Shown here in pieces: positions 22,935 to 50,314 of a stretch of DNA of 64,000 bases. This stretch comes from Polyangiaceae bacterium. GTDB taxonomy: Bacteria; Myxococcota_A; Polyangia; Polyangiales; Polyangiaceae. Both the position numbers and the translations under genes were made by a program. Location of the stretch: positions 1 to 64,000 of the forward strand of contig WQZB01000004.1 of NCBI GenBank assembly GCA_009780955.1. The letters are read 5' to 3'. How positions within the stretch are numbered: the first letter of the stretch is position 1; each line of letters opens with the position of its first letter. The notes beneath the pieces were generated by a model that was not told the origin of the DNA, ran no database searches, and was given only the letters and a program-made list of their open reading frames with translations.

Positions 22935-23057
22935 GACCGCTTTCAAGTTGACACGAGGTCGAGGCGGCGGCGAGGAGCGGACCGGAACAGCCTCTTCCGG
23001 CTTTGAGGACCGCACCGGAGCCGCCAACGAAGAGATCGTGTCAAATCGAAAGCGGTC
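22935..23057 (-). repeat. 123-bp stop-codon-anchored repeat, copy D
   Basis: Full copy, read on the minus strand. It begins GACCGCTTTCGATTTGACAC; its first GA forms the TGA stop of norD (23058-23056). Both arms carry TTGACACGA, a variant absent from copies A-C. The far end is 5 bases from the glnA terminator stem. Confidence 0.93.
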
Positions 23058-24954
23058 ACGAGCAAAGCTGCTCATAGGTCATGGTCAGCGCTGAAACGAG
23101 CTCGTCGACCTTCAAAAGCACATGATAGCGGCCGGGGCCCAACATGGCGGGCATCATTTCGCCGGCACGCGGATCGATCGTCAGCCCATGAATGCGCACG
23201 CCGACACGATCGGCCTCGCGTACCGCTTGGCGCACATCGGCGATGCCATGCCGTCCTTCGTACCTGTCGTAATCGGTCGGCTTGCCGTCGCCGATCATGA
23301 GAAGAAGCTTGTGGCGCTCGGGCTGGCGAGCAAGCTCGCTCGTTGCATGTCGCAACGCCGGGCCAATGCGCGTGTATCCTTGCGGTTGTAGGGCTCCGAG
23401 ACGCGCACGAGCGACGGGCCACGGCGTCCCGCGTCCCATAATCTCGAAAACACGGCATGTGGTTCGCGTGTGCGAGGCGAATGCGAAGATGGAAATTGCA
23501 TCACCAAGCGAGGCCGTCACTTCGCCGAGAACGAGAACGGCCTCGCGAGCGACATCGAGCACACGCCGATCGGCGACCCACGCATCGCTCGAAAGCGAAA
23601 CGTCGAGGAGCACGAGCAACGCAACGTCTCGCTCCCTTTTTCGCTTTTGCCGGTAAAGCCGTGGCGCACCATATTCGTCTGCGCGCAGCGAAGAGAGATG
23701 ATGAACCACGGCGTCGAGATCGATCGATTCGCCATCGCGTTGCCTTTGCACAACGGCGCGCCGCGTGCGCGCCACTTCGATGCGCCTGCGAAGCTCGTCG
23801 ATCTTCCGCCGATGCTGGGCGAGAGGCTCTAAGTGCCACACGAGGTCCGCGGCACGCACTTGGGTCGGGTAAACCGTGCACCATGCATGCAAATAATCGT
23901 GCCGTTTCCCGTCCCACTCGTCGTAGGGAATGCCTCGCTCGCCGGGTAGCACGGTTTCGACATCGGGAATGTCGGCGGAGACCGAAACATCGGCGGAGAG
24001 AACCGCGTGGACCGGATCGCTCGATCGAACGACTTTGCCGAGATCGAGCTCTTCGGAAGCCTCGGCGTGCTCGTCGAGCTGGTCGGAGCCGTCGAGATCT
24101 CGCGCACCACCATGGTAGTCGTCGGCGGTTTCCACCTTTTCGAACGAATGCTGAACCACGTTGGTCTCAAGCTCTTTTTCATCGAGCTTGACGAGCTCAA
24201 TGGTGTCGACCGTTTTAACCTTGCGCTGCCGCGCATTTCTCTCTGGCGGATTTGCCGCGTCATCGGTCAGATCTTCATCGAGCACCACCTCATTCGGCCG
24301 CAAGCTGCCCCAAAGCACCACCGGCGGCGAACGCCGATCAGCGGGCGCCTTTGCCAAGACATGCACCTCGCAGTCAGCGCCTTGCACAAGTATTTCTTGA
24401 CGAAGCCGCTCTATCTCGCCTTCCTCGCGTGCAAGCATTCGAGGATCGGGACGCCCGGCAAGCACGCACGTGCAGACTGCCTGCCACCGATCAAAAAAAC
24501 CTGGCCACGACTGCCGAAGCATCTCGAGTGCCGTGCGAACGCTCGCTGTCTCGGCGCGTGCTGCATCGAGTCGGCTTTGCGCACCAGCGGTAGCATGCTG
24601 AAGAAACAGCATGCTCGATAGCGCCGTGCGCAGAACGTACACGTCGACGTTACGCGCTAGCACATCGGCGACTGCAATCGTCGTAGGCAGAAGGAGTGTT
24701 CGCCCGACAACGCCCCCTTCAGCCTTTGCAGGTCGAATGCGCACTTCACTTTCTGTGAGAACGCGCGCAAGCACCGTGAGGCGTGGTTCGACCGCAGCGA
24801 GGTGCGCCGCATTGGGATCGGCTGCACCTTGCGCACCACGACGAAGCAACGCCCGCGCGATCCCGCGGAGCGCACGATACGCAGACAATTCCCAATCGAA
24901 GTCGAGCGACGGCCCTTGCGACGGATCTACGCGCTTGCCATGGGATTGGGGCAT
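23056..24954 (-). CDS. norD: Nitric oxide reductase activation protein NorD
   Basis: A 632-residue protein with a C-terminal von Willebrand A domain (from about residue 430): LLVLLDVSLSSDAWVAD holds the MIDAS Asp-x-Ser-x-Ser, and RHKLLLMIGDGKPTDYDRYEGRHGIADV is split by the second MIDAS loop. The N-terminal two-thirds is helical and acidic, as in NorD. NorD works with the AAA+ NorQ to mature cytochrome c-dependent NO reductase, probably by metal insertion. It is the last gene of norCBQD, starting 3 bases after norQ, and its stop is completed by repeat copy D. Confidence 0.88.
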   Translation of the reverse strand: MPQSHGKRVDPSQGPSLDFDWELSAYRALRGIARALLRRGAQGAADPNAAHLAAVEPRLTVLARVLTESEVRIRPAKAEGGVVGRTLLLPTTIAVADVLARNVDVYVLRTALSSMLFLQHATAGAQSRLDAARAETASVRTALEMLRQSWPGFFDRWQAVCTCVLAGRPDPRMLAREEGEIERLRQEILVQGADCEVHVLAKAPADRRSPPVVLWGSLRPNEVVLDEDLTDDAANPPERNARQRKVKTVDTIELVKLDEKELETNVVQHSFEKVETADDYHGGARDLDGSDQLDEHAEASEELDLGKVVRSSDPVHAVLSADVSVSADIPDVETVLPGERGIPYDEWDGKRHDYLHAWCTVYPTQVRAADLVWHLEPLAQHRRKIDELRRRIEVARTRRAVVQRQRDGESIDLDAVVHHLSSLRADEYGAPRLYRQKRKRERDVALLVLLDVSLSSDAWVADRRVLDVAREAVLVLGEVTASLGDAISIFAFASHTRTTCRVFEIMGRGTPWPVARARLGALQPQGYTRIGPALRHATSELARQPERHKLLLMIGDGKPTDYDRYEGRHGIADVRQAVREADRVGVRIHGLTIDPRAGEMMPAMLGPGRYHVLLKVDELVSALTMTYEQLCS

Positions 24955-24957
24955 AAT

Positions 24958-25731
24958 TCAAAATGCGAGCGCGATGGCTTCGTTGAGACCGTCGCGCACG
25001 TCGGGATCGTCGGTGAGCGACTCGACGATGGCTACCTGACATGCGCGGCGCGGCTCAAGCCCCGCACGAACAAGCTTTGCCGCGTCGACAAGCAAGCGGG
25101 TCGAAGGGAGCTCGCCGAGCCCAAGGTGATCGAGCTTGCGAATCTTGTGCGCAAGCACGCTGAGTCGCCTTGCGATTTTCTTGTCTACGCCGGTCTCGCC
25201 AACCACGATGTCGGTCTCAATCTCCACGTCGGGGTAGTTGAAAGCAAGCGACACGAACCGCTGGCGCGTCGACGCCTTCAGCTCTTTGAGGCCGCGCTGA
25301 TAACCTGGATTGAAGCTAATCACCAGGTGAAATCCGTTGGCCGCAGGCACGGCCTCGTCGCGCTGCTCGATGTAAAGTACACGCCTGTGATCGCTGAGCG
25401 GATGAAGAACGACGATGACGTCGGGGCGCGCCTCGGCGATCTCGTCGAGGTAAAGAACGGCACCTGCGCGAACGGCGCGTGTGACCGGACCGTCTTGCCA
25501 CACGGTTTCACCACCGCGAATCAAATACCGCCCAACGAGGTCCACGGCGCTCGTTTCGTCGTGGCATGCCACGGTGACCAGAGGGCGCCCGAGCCGCTCC
25601 GCCATGGCTTCGACGAAACGGCTCTTGCCGGTGCCTGTTGGGCCTTTCAGGCAAAGCGGAAGGTGCTCTTCGAAAGCGTGATGGAAAACCGTGCACTCAT
25701 CAGCTACCGGCCGGTAGAACGTAGGCGTCAT
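24958..25731 (-). CDS. norQ: NorQ/CbbQ-type AAA+ ATPase
   Basis: A 257-residue MoxR-class AAA+ protein. It shows HLPLCLKGPTGTGKSRFVEA (Walker A), TVACHDETSAVDLVGRYLI, GAVLYLDEIAEARPDV (Walker B), HLVISFNPGYQ (sensor 1) and STRQRFVSLAF (arginine finger), then the CbbQ-type C-terminal domain. It is the motor partner of NorD in activating NorB. The ATG at 25731 overlaps the norB stop by one base (TAATG); an in-frame upstream extension lies inside norB and is rejected. Confidence 0.93.
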   Translation of the reverse strand: MTPTFYRPVADECTVFHHAFEEHLPLCLKGPTGTGKSRFVEAMAERLGRPLVTVACHDETSAVDLVGRYLIRGGETVWQDGPVTRAVRAGAVLYLDEIAEARPDVIVVLHPLSDHRRVLYIEQRDEAVPAANGFHLVISFNPGYQRGLKELKASTRQRFVSLAFNYPDVEIETDIVVGETGVDKKIARRLSVLAHKIRKLDHLGLGELPSTRLLVDAAKLVRAGLEPRRACQVAIVESLTDDPDVRDGLNEAIALAF

Positions 25732-27101
25732 TACTCTGCGGCGGCCGGCTCGGCCTGGGCAACCACGGAGGAATTGCCCTCGACATTTGCTTGCGGCAAG
25801 CCATACTGAATGAAATTCCAAATGTAAAGACTGATGCCAACTGCAAAAAGAGAGGCAGCAAGCACGAGTCCCACGAAGTGGACCTCAATTGCTTTTTGCA
25901 CCGCAAGGAAATCCATTCCTGATTTGCGCTCGAGATAGACCTGCGACACACCGGCTACTGCGAAGGCGCCCGTCATACCGAGTATACCGACGTTGGATAT
26001 CCAAAATGCCCAGGTGCTAGACCAATGCTTGTATGCCTGGCGACCCGTTAGCCCCGGCATCGCGTACGCAATAACCCCCAAAACAATGGTTGCGTACGCA
26101 CCCCAGAATGCGAGATGCCCGTGCATGGCCGTCACGAGCGTTCCGTGGGTCCACAGGTTGACTTGCGGAATGGTATGAGCAAAGCCAAGGAACCCCGCCC
26201 CTACGAAGCTCATGATACCACAACCAACGGTCCAAAAAAGCGCATTCTTGTTCGGATGTTTCCGGCCACCTCGCAACATCATGGTAACTGCATATGCGGC
26301 CATGCCAAGAAACGCGAGAGGTTCAAGAGCGGAGAAAATGCCACCAATGGGAAGCCAATAGGCCGGTGTGCCAACGTAATAATAGTGATGCCCGGTTCCA
26401 AGAATTCCGGAAAGGAACGTCAAGCCAACGATCACGTAAAGCCATTTCTCGATCACTTCGCGGTCAACGCCCGTAAGCTTGATGAGAAGGAACGAGAGAA
26501 TCGATCCCATAATGAGTTCCCAAACGCCCTCGACCCAGAGATGGACAACCCACCAGCGAAAAAACGAATCGTGTACATGGTTGTCGAACGTGTACATTCC
26601 AGGCAAATAGAGCAGCGCCGCGGAAAGAAGCCCGCCAAAAAGAACGGCACCCGTCGTGCTGAGTCGTCGCGCCGTCCACGCGGTCATGCCAATATTGAAG
26701 AGAAATGCGAGCACATCGACCACGACCAGGTAATCGAGCTCACGTGGGATCTCGAGGAATTTCCGACCTTCCCACCAATTGAGGTGAAAGCCGATAATGG
26801 CAATCACTCCCACCACCACGAGAGCGCCCCACTGCACGACCGCGAGCTTCGGACTATAGAGCTCGCGCTCGGCCTCTTCCGGAATGATGTAATAGGCCGC
26901 GCCCATGAACCCCGAGAGAAGCCATACGACCAAAAGATTGATGTGCGTGGCGCGCGCCGCGTTGAATGGGATGACGGGGTGAAGCACGTCATAGCCCAAG
27001 TGCGCAAACGCCATAATGAAACCGTAGACGATCTGCAGCGAAAGCAGCAGCATCGACGTCGCAAAGAACAAATACGCGACGCGTTGACTCTTGTACTTCA
27101 T
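25731..27101 (-). CDS. norB: Nitric oxide reductase, cytochrome b subunit
   Basis: A 456-residue catalytic subunit of cNOR (2 NO + 2 e- + 2 H+ to N2O) with 12 membrane segments in the inner membrane. Heme b and heme b3/FeB ligands are visible: His53 (ATHINLL), His187 and Glu191 in VVHLWVEGVWE (FeB site), His238-His239 in GTGHHYY, and His327/His329 in AMHGHLAFWG. The FeB-site glutamate and the absence of a fused quinol-oxidising N-terminal extension mark the cytochrome c-dependent form. The tail is Ala/Glu-rich. It overlaps norC by 4 bases. Confidence 0.96.
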   Translation of the reverse strand: MKYKSQRVAYLFFATSMLLLSLQIVYGFIMAFAHLGYDVLHPVIPFNAARATHINLLVVWLLSGFMGAAYYIIPEEAERELYSPKLAVVQWGALVVVGVIAIIGFHLNWWEGRKFLEIPRELDYLVVVDVLAFLFNIGMTAWTARRLSTTGAVLFGGLLSAALLYLPGMYTFDNHVHDSFFRWWVVHLWVEGVWELIMGSILSFLLIKLTGVDREVIEKWLYVIVGLTFLSGILGTGHHYYYVGTPAYWLPIGGIFSALEPLAFLGMAAYAVTMMLRGGRKHPNKNALFWTVGCGIMSFVGAGFLGFAHTIPQVNLWTHGTLVTAMHGHLAFWGAYATIVLGVIAYAMPGLTGRQAYKHWSSTWAFWISNVGILGMTGAFAVAGVSQVYLERKSGMDFLAVQKAIEVHFVGLVLAASLFAVGISLYIWNFIQYGLPQANVEGNSSVVAQAEPAAAE

Positions 27102-27841
27102 CGTACGCCTCCCTGCGGGCCACCATGCGAAAGAAGGAAAGATGCAATCTCTTTACGTTCCTCGAGCGACACGCCCAAATCTTTCGGATTGGGCATGGCT
27201 GTTCCGGATTTCTCCGCCTGGGGATCGGAAAGCCACTTATCCAAATATTCTGGTGTAAACTCCTTGCCAGTCACAGACTCCCTCCCGGAAAGGTTGTCGA
27301 GAGCCGGTCCCACACTCGCCCCTTGACCATCGAGCGAATGACAAGACATGCAAACGACCTTGAATTTTGGCGGCGCGGAGGCAAGCTTGCCGCCCGCCGC
27401 TCCCGCGGTCTTCACTTGGGCTGGTGCGAGATCGGGCTTCGCAGGGAAACCATTCGTGTCGACGTTTTGAATCCACTCAAGAAACGCGATCACATCTTCA
27501 ATTTGATCTTTGTCAAAGCCATAATTGACCATTTGTCGCTGATTAGGAAACACTTTTGCCGGATCGTGCAAAAACAACCGAATCCAATCTTTGCCACGGC
27601 GCTCCACGACCCTCGTTAACTCGGGTGCGTAATAAGCACCTTCGCCAAAGATGGTATGACACCCCATGCAGTTGTTCTTGTCCCAAATGCGTCGGCCGCG
27701 AAGGACTTCTTGGGTCAACGCGTCTGCGTGAGAGCGAGCCGGCACCTGCCGGAGAGTGTCGACCGTGAGTCCAAGGAAAACGACGGAGAATCCAATCGTC
27801 CCACCGAGGAAGAATTTCTTTGCTTGAGACTTCGCGAGCAT
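27098..27841 (-). CDS. norC: Nitric oxide reductase subunit C, diheme form
   Basis: A 247-residue membrane-anchored cytochrome c that feeds electrons to NorB. Residues 9-27 form the membrane anchor. The NorC domain follows with CMGCHTIFGEGAYYAPEL (Cys58, Cys61, His62) and QMVNYGF (Met104). After a Pro/Ala linker a second cytochrome c domain appears with CMSCHSLDGQG (Cys164, Cys167, His168) and GTAMPNP (Met216). Standard NorC has about 150 residues and one heme, so this is a fusion with an extra c domain. I start at ATG 27841, right before the anchor; upstream in-frame codons have no signal features. It is the first gene of norCBQD. Confidence 0.9.
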   Translation of the reverse strand: MLAKSQAKKFFLGGTIGFSVVFLGLTVDTLRQVPARSHADALTQEVLRGRRIWDKNNCMGCHTIFGEGAYYAPELTRVVERRGKDWIRLFLHDPAKVFPNQRQMVNYGFDKDQIEDVIAFLEWIQNVDTNGFPAKPDLAPAQVKTAGAAGGKLASAPPKFKVVCMSCHSLDGQGASVGPALDNLSGRESVTGKEFTPEYLDKWLSDPQAEKSGTAMPNPKDLGVSLEERKEIASFLLSHGGPQGGVR

Positions 27842-47102: not shown

Positions 47103-47789
47103 TCAATGAACCGGTTGAACCGGTTTCCGCCGCTCGATTTCGGGCAGCAAGTCCGTGTTCGCCTGCCCGAGAGTATCGGCTTGGCCCACGACGACGCCGT
47201 TTTCGTCGAGGAGCGTGATCCGCGCCGAATGACTGAATTCGCCGTCTGGGAGCTGCCGGAATTGGTAGCCGAGAACAGCCGCGAGTTCTCGCGCTGCATC
47301 GTCAGACGGCGCCGCCGCCATCTTCCAGCGCGAAAGATCAATTTTGTGCTTTTGCACCATTTCCATAAGCTTCGCAGGAGTATCCCGCTTGGGGTCAAAG
47401 CTAACAAACAGAATGCGCATGCGATCGCGCATTGTGGGGTCGACTTGTTCCTCGAGTGACTTGATGTCGCGAACCAAAAGCGGACACGCGGAACGACACG
47501 TTGCGTAAAACATGGTCACAATCGTGGGATGCCCACGAAACGTGTCAAACGGCACGATTTTACCATCCTGATCGGTGAGATTCATGTCGACCTGATAGAC
47601 AGATTCACCTTTTGGAAGGGAAGACGACGGCGTTGGCGGCATGACTATTGTGGTTGGCGTAACCGTAGACGCTGACGCAAGGCTTTCGCCACTGGACGCC
47701 GTGGTCTCACGCCGGGAACACGAAGCACCCACGAACAGTGAGAATAACCCGAATACCAAACGCTCTGCAAACCTTTTGGCGGGCGGCAT
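47103..47789 (-). CDS. SCO1/SenC-family copper chaperone lipoprotein
   Basis: A 228-residue lipoprotein (signal ends VGASC, Cys24) with a thioredoxin fold. The copper ligands are present: ATCRSACPL (Cys98, Cys102) and FSHSAR (His187), together with the redox-fold region VSFDPKRDTPAKL. SCO proteins deliver copper to oxidases; next to nirK it probably loads copper into the nitrite reductase. Its ATG follows the nirV stop directly (TAAATG), so it is translated from the same mRNA. Confidence 0.88.
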   Translation of the reverse strand: MPPAKRFAERLVFGLFSLFVGASCSRRETTASSGESLASASTVTPTTIVMPPTPSSSLPKGESVYQVDMNLTDQDGKIVPFDTFRGHPTIVTMFYATCRSACPLLVRDIKSLEEQVDPTMRDRMRILFVSFDPKRDTPAKLMEMVQKHKIDLSRWKMAAAPSDDAARELAAVLGYQFRQLPDGEFSHSARITLLDENGVVVGQADTLGQANTDLLPEIERRKPVQPVH

Positions 47790-48659
47790 TTAGAGCACCT
47801 CGCTCCTTGTTGGAACACGGCTTGCTCCGTCGTTCGCGCCATTTGCTCCGTTTGCGCCTTTCACGACGGCATCTCGGGCGCACCGGAAACCGAGGTTCGC
47901 AGTCGTGTAATTCCCTTGGAGGGAGCCGCGAAACGCGAAACGCATGAAGGATGCATAATCAGCTTTGTCGCTGCCTCGAAGGGAGCTACCGCCACAGACA
48001 AACGCTTCGTCGGTGCGCCGCCCGTCGCTGGAAGATCGGATGTTGAAATCGAACACCCACTCCCAGATGAGACCATGCATATCGTAAAGGCCCCAAAAAT
48101 TGGGTTTCTTCTGCGCCACTGCAGGCATGATCGTGGGTGTTGGTTTCGCGTACCATTCAAGCACCTCGGTGCGTCGCTTATCACGGTCTGCAATCGGCGA
48201 TTTTTCATCGGCAGCAGCGGCGAGCTCCCACTCGTTTTCGGTAGGGAGTCGAAGCCCACGCTCGGCACAATATGCCTTCGCGGCAAACCAACTCACGCGC
48301 ACAACCGGAGCCTTTTCCGGCGCGCGTAGGCCAGGCACTGTAGGCGATTCCCAATCTGCCAGATAATGATCGTCGGAAAACAGTTTCGAAACGACGTCGC
48401 GCTGCCACTTCGGGTGACGGATAACGAAGGCCAGGTAATCGCGATTCGTTACGGCTGTTTTGTCAAGGAAAAAACGCGCGACCATGACGGTTGCCTCTTC
48501 GGGTCGCGGCGGATCGAAAAGCTTTAGCGTAGCCGGCCCCACCGCAACCATGCCCGGAGGAGGCGGCTCGGGACGTGCGCCCGCCGCGCTTGCCGTCACC
48601 GCAGTGATGGCAAGCGCAAAACTGACCCCTTTTACCCGAGCGATGCTGCTCATCCGCAA
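47790..48659 (-). CDS. nirV: NirV-like SUMF1/FGE-domain protein
   Basis: A 289-residue exported protein (signal 1-28, ALAITAVTASAAGA). The SUMF1 fold is seen in PPGMVAVGPA, FFLDKTAVTNRDYLAFVIRHP, PVVRVSWFAAKAYCAERGLRLPTENEWELAA (in parts), GLYDMHGLIWEWVFDF and GNYTTANLGFRCA. Where FGE has its two catalytic cysteines after GGS, this protein has CGGSSLRGSDKADY, so it cannot be a classical formylglycine enzyme. NirV proteins encoded next to nirK in other denitrifiers are of this family and have no settled function. It lies between nirK (8-base gap) and sco1. Confidence 0.78.
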   Translation of the reverse strand: MRMSSIARVKGVSFALAITAVTASAAGARPEPPPPGMVAVGPATLKLFDPPRPEEATVMVARFFLDKTAVTNRDYLAFVIRHPKWQRDVVSKLFSDDHYLADWESPTVPGLRAPEKAPVVRVSWFAAKAYCAERGLRLPTENEWELAAAADEKSPIADRDKRRTEVLEWYAKPTPTIMPAVAQKKPNFWGLYDMHGLIWEWVFDFNIRSSSDGRRTDEAFVCGGSSLRGSDKADYASFMRFAFRGSLQGNYTTANLGFRCARDAVVKGANGANGANDGASRVPTRSEVL

Positions 48660-48667
48660 TTCCTAAT

Positions 48668-50191
48668 TCATTTGGGCGCACCTGGCGGCGCCTTCGCAGC
48701 CGCACGCACGGCGGCAACTTCGGCCTTCGTTACCACTCCACCGGGATTTCCCCAGCTATTGAGAACGTAGGTAAGAATATTCGCAATGTCATCGTCGGGC
48801 AGATTGCTAAGCGGTGGCATACTGGAGTCGTACGGGGCACCATTGACCGTCAGCTTGCCCGATAGTCCACTAACAACATTATGGATTGCCTTCGTCTTGC
48901 CGTCGGGCGCGGAAAGAAAGTCACTTTTCGCGAGCGGCGGAAACACGGTGGGAATGCCCTGCCCTTCGTTCTGGTGGCAGGCCGAGCACGTTCCAGCGAA
49001 CAGCTGCTTGCCAGCAGCAATCTGCAGCTCGCGCGTAAGCGTACCTTTCGCTTCGGCGTCCGCTGCGGCCTTGACCGCGCCCGTCGGCGCAGCCTTGTCG
49101 CTCAAATAAACAGAGTCGATTCCTCTGCCACCGTAGATGCTTTTGGCGATGCCCTCGTCTCCCTGGGGGTCGACCTTGAGAATGCCAAGGGCCCCCTTGT
49201 TGAACGCGCGGAAAATCGAGTGGTCAACGAGGACGTAGCTACCAGGCACCTCGACCTTGAACTCGACCATTACCGCGCCGCCCGCAGGGATCAGCGTGGT
49301 CTGCACTTGCTCATTCACTAATTTGCCACCCTCGACATAGACCTTGTCGAAGATCTCGCCGATGATGTGGAAGCTCGACACCATATTTGGGCCACCGTTG
49401 CCAACGAAGAGGCGAACGGTTTCACCCACCTTCGCTTTGAGCGGATCACGCACGAGCGATTCCTCGGAACCATTGAAGACGACGTAGGTAGGACGCTCTT
49501 CGATGGCCTTCTGCATGTCGAACTTTGCCAAGCCTTTTTCGCGATACTTGTCGACCGTGTAGAAGTCGTTCTGCATCACGTAGTACTCGTGGTCGACCTT
49601 AGGCAGACCCTCGGGCGGCTCGACGAGAATGAGGCCCGTCATGCCGTTCGCGATGTGCATGCCGACGGGCGCGGTCGCGCAGTGATAGACAAAAATGCCA
49701 GAAGCCAGTGCCTTGAAAGTAAATTGCGATGTGTGCCCAGGCGCCGTGGCCGTACTCGTCGCGCCGCCACCAGGACCTGTGACCGCGTGCATATCGATGT
49801 TGTGCGGCATTTTGTTGTCGGGGTGATTGCTAAGGTGAAATTCCACCGTATCACCCTGACGAATACGAATGAACTTGCCCGGAACACGCCCGCCGAATGT
49901 CCAAAACGGGTATTGTACGCCATCGGAAATCGGCAGCTCGACTTCTTTGACCTCGAGGTTGACGACTACCTTGGTTGGCGCCGTGCGCCCAGTGGGCGGC
50001 GGCACCTCGGGCGCGTGTGTAAGCTGCGCATCAACCGATCCACTCACTGGCACCTCGGCGGCCTTTGCCCCCGACGCGGTCGATGCTGGCGTTGACGTGG
50101 ACGACGACCCTGTTCCTTTTCCACTTTGTTCGCCGCAGCCCAGGAGACAGAGCCCGACCGCGATCGTTCCAAATCGTGCGAATGACCCCAT
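48668..50191 (-). CDS. nirK: Copper nitrite reductase fused to cytochrome c
   Basis: A 507-residue lipoprotein (signal ends LCLLGC, Cys19) reducing nitrite to NO. The two cupredoxin domains are of the AniA type. Ligands read directly: His130 (type 1), Asp133 and His135 (type 2) in PHNIDMHA; His170 (T2) and Cys171 (T1) in [10 protein letters not shown], His179 and Met184 (T1) in MHIANGM; His275 (T2) in SSFHIIG. After about residue 370 a linker leads to a class I cytochrome c with CSACH (402-406) and Met458 in SSMPPL. The fused heme should supply electrons intramolecularly. ATG 50191 has GGAG 7 bases upstream. It is the first gene of nirK-nirV-sco1, behind an FNR-type site. Confidence 0.93.
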
Positions 50192-50314
50192 GGGAATCTC
50201 CTGCTTCTGCAAAAAGCGAAAAGTCATGGAAACCGCGGTCGCGAAAATCACACCTTTCTGCAAGCGAATGCCGCGCGAAGTGCGAATTTTGACTCGCCCT
50301 GAATTGTGACAATC

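Follow-up and report, generated by a model that had tools for sequence, protein, structure and literature searches.

The norC gene of the window (the whole stretch of DNA analysed here, 64,000 nucleotides) encodes a NorC with two cytochrome c domains in one polypeptide. The enzyme is a variant of the NO reductase cNOR rather than a standard cNOR: the description of the standard single-heme enzyme did not fit this NorC, which contains two CxxCH motifs and two candidate axial methionines. Judged by its architecture and conservation, the second cytochrome domain (domain 2) of this two-heme cNOR probably acts as a tethered entry point for electrons.

The norC gene and the nor operon

As shown in Table 1, norC was located on the reverse strand, as the first gene of a norCBQD operon. 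The ATG at position 27841 is its likely start, since the motif MLxKSxA opens nearly all relatives. Pfam searches placed Cytochrom_C at residues 48-123 and Cytochrome_CBB3 at residues 160-236, both above the curated cut-offs. By sequence, domain 1 is NorC: residues 3-134 matched chain C of the Pseudomonas aeruginosa cNOR structure 3o0r with an E value of 7e-31, and the match ended at the end of that 146-residue protein, before domain 2. The heme motif of domain 1, CMGCH, occupies residues 58-62 (27656-27670, reverse strand) and its axial methionine is Met104 (27530-27532, reverse strand). In domain 2 the heme motif is CMSCH at residues 164-168 (27338-27352, reverse strand), and the axial methionine is Met216 within GTAMPNP (27194-27196, reverse strand). 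The first-pass annotation had described a second complete c domain with these two motifs at the C-terminus of NorC, and the single frame with its two Pfam domains bears this out.

Table 1. Features of the nor operon, parts of NorC, and nirK in the window.
Feature	Position	Strand	Basis or remark
norD-like VWA protein	23056..24954	(-)	Pfam VWA_2 and VWA_CoxE below cut-off; position
norQ-like AAA+ ATPase	24958..25821	(-)	Pfam AAA_5 and CbbQ_C
norB, catalytic subunit, 456 aa	25731..27101	(-)	4-base overlap with norC; 3o0r_B, E 7e-115
norC, two-heme variant, 247 aa	27098..27841	(-)	single open frame, no internal stop
N-terminal membrane anchor, ~residues 4-28	27758..27832	(-)	hydropathy, model helix, 3o0r NorC match
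Cytochrome c domain 1 (NorC domain), ~residues 44-136	27434..27712	(-)	Pfam, 3o0r_C, VIA
Linker, ~residues 137-156	27374..27433	(-)	low model confidence; length varies among relatives
Cytochrome c domain 2, ~residues 157-242	27116..27373	(-)	Pfam, VIA, invariant heme residues
nirK with fused C-terminal cytochrome c	48668..50263	(-)	outside the nor operon; Cytochrom_C ~415-504

NorB matched 4xyd (E 4e-112) in addition to 3o0r_B, and it matched cNOR structures much better than qNOR. The residues H53, H187, E191, H238, H239, H327 and H329, whose roles as ligands we take to be those in the structure of the P. aeruginosa enzyme, were all present and were invariant in 101 of 101 aligned NorB sequences. 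The partner of the two-heme NorC should therefore have the active site of a usual cNOR. The operon also differs in layout from qNOR, in which a single fused chain of about 750 aa lacks a heme c motif, whereas the window has separate norC and norB genes and two CxxCH motifs. The true start of the norQ-like gene is probably the ATG at 25731. The norD-like gene follows norQ in the same placing as in annotated nor operons; its identity is drawn from this position and from weak matches, since the VWA matches fell under the Pfam cut-off.

Structure model of NorC

NorC was modelled with AlphaFold2 from a 55-row alignment, and the model had a mean pLDDT of 84.8 and a pTM of 0.71. A single long helix at residues 4-36 formed the membrane anchor, and the hydropathy peak was at residues 9-30. 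Linker residues 141-148 had pLDDT values below 50. The relative placing of the two c domains is not fixed by the model because confidence in the linker was low and the model covered NorC alone. The best Foldseek matches of the model were 3o0r_C and 4xyd_B, and 2yev_B was also matched. VIA-align superposed residues 2-135 on 3o0r_C with a Z score of 10.2 and an rmsd of 3.6 over 127 aligned residues; residues 154-242 aligned with class I cytochromes c with Z of about 9 and rmsd of 2.6-2.8 (85-86 aligned). In the model, domain 2 has the fold of a class I cytochrome c.

Distribution of two-heme NorC

We counted two-heme NorC in a draw of 282 genomes from the phylum, 49 of which had a NorB match at 1e-40. 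One of these (G127) was set aside as qNOR-like, with 34% identity and a 917-residue frame. Domain 2 was present in 47 of the 48 genomes with a cNOR-type NorB. Both CxxCH motifs were found in one frame in 46 of the bearers; the remaining one (G122) is cut by the end of its contig, which starts there, so that domain 2 alone is seen. The sole genome with a single-heme cNOR, G193, has coordinates that fit the named locus L114.

A second count was made among the best 80 of 471 relatives, which are named loci. Two CxxCH motifs lay in one frame in 75 of these, a 76th (L111) had both domains in a broken frame, and a single CxxCH was found in four (L114, L118, L120 and L122). Because the 80 were chosen by similarity to a two-heme query, single-heme forms are under-counted among them, a bias from which the NorB-based phylum count is free. 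A NorB match accompanied 79 of the 80 loci, with none in the stretch examined for L077. By record title the bearers belong to Myxococcota, Verrucomicrobiota, Planctomycetota, Bdellovibrionota, Spirochaetota, Bacteroidota, Acidobacteriota and others; almost all are metagenome bins, whose names are at times unreliable, and Acanthopleuribacter pedis is a named strain. The first-pass annotation had attributed the fusions on NorC and NirK to this lineage. A lineage-specific origin was rejected, as nearly all cNOR genomes sampled in the phylum have a two-heme NorC, which also occurs in several other phyla, and the NirK fusion is of a known type.

A longer two-heme NorC of about 270-290 aa was encoded in some genomes of the draw (L038-L040, L042) and on plasmids of Eleftheria terrae (L123) and Aquabacterium olei (L124). 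Genome G334 (L035, L042) carries the compact and the long type together. The NorC of Thermus thermophilus (L135:1795-2460) reaches 221 residues through an N-terminal extension and has one CxxCH.

Conservation of the heme sites and selection on domain 2

The closest relative, of the same genus, has an identical architecture at 72% identity. Residues C164, C167, H168, M216 and P217 of domain 2 were invariant in 23 of 23 sequences from the phylum (window included) and in 55 of 55 sequences of the wider alignment, which consisted of the window, L002 and 53 of the 80 named loci. C58, C61, H62 and M104 of domain 1 were likewise invariant in the 55. Between the window and its closest relative, the Nei-Gojobori method gave dN 0.202 and dS 1.371 for domain 2 (residues 157-243; dN/dS about 0.15) and dN 0.155 and dS 0.885 for domain 1 (residues 1-136; dN/dS about 0.18). 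The low ratios indicate that both domains are under purifying selection.

These data bear on whether norC and a neighbouring cytochrome gene were joined by an error of sequencing or assembly, which the first-pass annotation had named as a way in which its reading could fail. A frame broken between the heme domains does occur in one relative (L111:4947-5720), where both domains are present and the interruption reflects either a sequencing error or real decay; for the window itself nothing spoke in favour of such an error. Domain 2 is encoded in 76 of the best 80 named relatives as well as in 47 of the 48 cNOR genomes of the phylum draw. With the same architecture in relatives and purifying selection on domain 2, the sequencing-error reading was discarded, and an artefact is vanishingly improbable.

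Domain 2 was also compared with other c domains of the organism in a phmmer search of a seven-sequence set. The best similarities, to a free cytochrome (6e-6) and to NorC domain 1 (7e-5), were ordinary for class I cytochromes, and the candidate origin of domain 2 as a copy of another c domain of the organism was rejected.

Phylogeny of NorB

As the first-pass annotation had proposed, homologues of NorC with two CxxCH motifs were mapped on a tree of NorB. The tree comprised 101 rows, 85 with a two-heme and 16 with a single-heme NorC, and left out NorB frames shorter than 400 aa and most unnamed duplicates. The 85 two-heme rows stood apart from the single-heme group of Pseudomonadota, which was formed by eleven NorBs, and the compact and long two-heme types were placed together opposite that group with a support of 98. 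The heme-count label changed four times on the tree, and the number was the same without the long-branched Thermus row. Four single-heme rows (L114, L118, L120 and L122) nested within the compact two-heme type, and a single clade of all two-heme rows was rejected (p-AU 0.011).

The tree is most simply explained by an early gain of domain 2 and about three later losses, although the single-heme sample is small and comes mainly from plasmids. The four nested single-heme NorCs look like later losses of domain 2. No convincing separate cytochrome gene was found within about 10 kb of these four loci. The nested losses indicate that the enzyme can do without domain 2.

Respiratory chain and NirK

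The genome of the window is 4.2 Mb in size and 98.7% complete. A search for heme-copper enzymes found three, namely NorB, a caa3-like oxidase and a cbb3 oxidase. The caa3-like oxidase has a subunit II with a fused cytochrome c and adjoins a cluster for Alternative Complex III (ACIII; L217, G000:C50:6500-22000) that encodes ActD, NrfD/ActC, an Fe-S ActB-like protein, a multiheme ActA-like protein and an ActE-like cytochrome. Cytochrome b of the bc1 kind (PF00033) gave no match in the genome and matched in 8 of 14 control genomes. A search for NosZ with PF18764 gave zero matches, in the control as well. In the cbb3 oxidase (L218:2460-5625, G000:C26), CcoN and CcoO are encoded in one 796-residue frame, and the FixP/CcoP protein at the same locus has 197 residues and a single CxxCH where two are usual. 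Elsewhere in the genome (L220:276-2768, G000:C16) an 830-residue protein combines VIT, VWA, FixP N-terminal and cytochrome c domains.

The first-pass annotation had also reported a NirK-cytochrome fusion in the window, and this was confirmed. In this protein a cytochrome c domain follows the NirK core at the C-terminus, as in cytochrome-fused NirK, with Cytochrom_C at about residues 415-504. Its best match was 3ziy, which we take to be the NirK of Ralstonia pickettii; the match covered residues 76-526 of 531 and took in the cytochrome domain. Cytochrome-fused NirKs of the Ralstonia pickettii type are well known, with many solved structures. Domain 2 of NorC was not especially close to the cytochrome of NirK, with a blastp E value of 0.011 over 23 residues. 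Downstream of nirK, at 47103-48659 on the reverse strand, the window encodes SCO1/SenC-type and formylglycine-generating-enzyme-like proteins. With fused c domains on caa3 subunit II, NirK and NorC, tethered cytochromes recur on the terminal enzymes of this cell.

In the phylum draw, fused NirK was found in 29 of 47 genomes with a two-heme NorC and in 14 of the 235 others. This co-occurrence shows only that NirK and cNOR travel together, since the single-heme genome G193 also has a fused NirK. Strong matches to cytochrome b were present in 10 of 47 two-heme genomes versus 72 of 235 others (p 0.22), and all matches in 14 of 47 versus 107 of 235 (p 0.053); both counts are given because the line between strong and weak matches, at about E 1e-24, was drawn post hoc from the table. 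The idea that two-heme NorC tracks the absence of bc1 was unsupported by either count.

Proposed role of domain 2

In cNOR, a cytochrome reduces the heme c of NorC, from which electrons reach the heme b3-FeB centre (PMC10256718). Given this path, domain 2 is most simply a tethered cytochrome ahead of the NorC heme. Domain 2 would bind heme with His/Met ligation and would sit in the periplasm beside domain 1 on a flexible linker. Electrons would run from a donor to the heme of domain 2, then to the heme of domain 1, the low-spin heme b and heme b3/FeB, where NO would become N2O. A soluble donor, or an intermediate between a quinol-oxidising complex and NorC, would in this way have been tethered onto cNOR, and domain 2 would serve it as the fused cytochromes serve caa3 oxidase and cytochrome-fused NirK. 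The wording of the first-pass annotation, that the enzymes had their own electron donors wired on, may be taken as a fair reading of such a mechanism.

It is rather unlikely, as an alternative, that domain 2 docks one particular quinol-oxidising complex, here ACIII, by a direct contact that makes free cytochrome c unneeded. The ACIII cluster in the organism's own genome and the unmatched PF00033 at this completeness would suit such docking, as would the like fusions on caa3 subunit II, NirK and NorC and the few free cytochrome candidates that PF13442 gave. But there is one such candidate (L219) in the genome, domain 2 was lost in the nested lineages, and strong cytochrome b matches in 10 of 47 two-heme genomes leave the association with its absence non-significant. 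A broader form of the idea is distinctly unlikely. In it, two-heme cNOR would be the usual form beyond the classical Pseudomonadota denitrifiers, domain 2 would serve specifically to plug the enzyme into a quinol-oxidising complex (ACIII here), and NO respiration in this organism would need no diffusing cytochrome c.

The dispensability of domain 2 in four nested lineages might instead mean that it lies off the main electron path, as an electron reservoir, a stabiliser or a feed to another acceptor. This is very unlikely, since its heme-binding residues are invariant across several phyla and selection on it is as strong as on domain 1. A tethered electron-entry point is the reading that we prefer.

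To our knowledge, all cNORs studied by biochemistry or structure are single-heme enzymes, and most of them are from Pseudomonadota. Should electrons enter through an extra tethered heme in most cNORs of Myxococcota, and in many from Verrucomicrobiota, Planctomycetota and Bdellovibrionota, the donor specificity, midpoint potentials and rates of the model enzymes may not transfer to them, and this mismatch could extend to much of the N2O-producing diversity of soils and sediments. Lineages in which domain 2 was lost naturally lend themselves to comparison.

Comparison with known systems

The closest known systems are the cNOR NorBC enzymes of Pseudomonas aeruginosa (3o0r) and Roseobacter denitrificans (4xyd). 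They resemble the window enzyme in NorC domain 1 (E 7e-31 and 1e-19, respectively), in NorB with its cofactor ligands and in a norCBQD-type operon. Their NorC chains differ in having 146-150 residues and one heme c, and they end where domain 2 of the window begins.

Among the possible refutations named in the first-pass annotation was that identical NorCs are widespread and already characterised. They proved to be widespread, and one has been named in print; no biochemical characterisation of them was found. No description of the breadth, structure or function of two-heme NorCs was found in the open-licence papers of PubMed Central, a collection outside which most subscription journals lie. 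A paper by Murali and colleagues on the diversity of NO reductases, which is cited in PMC12569097, may treat two-heme NorC. The protein named in print is Tbd_0822 of Thiobacillus denitrificans, called a 'non-canonical norC (diheme)' in the available text of a later paper, which credits the label to the genome paper of Beller et al. 2006 (PMC3753534). It is a second norC alongside the canonical Tbd_0562, and its likeness to the NorC of the window is one of description alone. In that text the diheme label comes without a structure or a NO-reductase function, and the mutant assay is of Fe(II) oxidation only, with 5.2 +/- 0.12 for the Tbd_0822 mutant versus 3.3 +/- 0.52 for the wild type (PMC3753534). 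Tbd_0822 may belong to the longer type of 270-290 residues seen on the two Burkholderiales plasmids.

That long type (L124, L123, L038-L040, L042) shares with the window a NorC with a C-terminal c domain and an adjoining NorB, and on the two plasmids also a NorQ and a VWA protein nearby. It differs in its length of about 270-290 residues, a first motif of the CxNCH type, a long insert in domain 2 and a separate NorB sub-lineage. An extra tethered cytochrome c on the electron-receiving subunit is likewise found in subunit II of caa3 (2yev_B) and in CcoP of cbb3, although these are oxygen reductases with other subunits. The Ralstonia pickettii NirK (3ziy) resembles the two-heme NorC in carrying a C-terminal cytochrome c on a denitrification enzyme, but the enzyme itself is different. 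Set beside these systems, two-heme NorC is a variant form of a known enzyme; it is widespread and conserved, appears to be uncharacterised, and is neither a new system nor private to one lineage.
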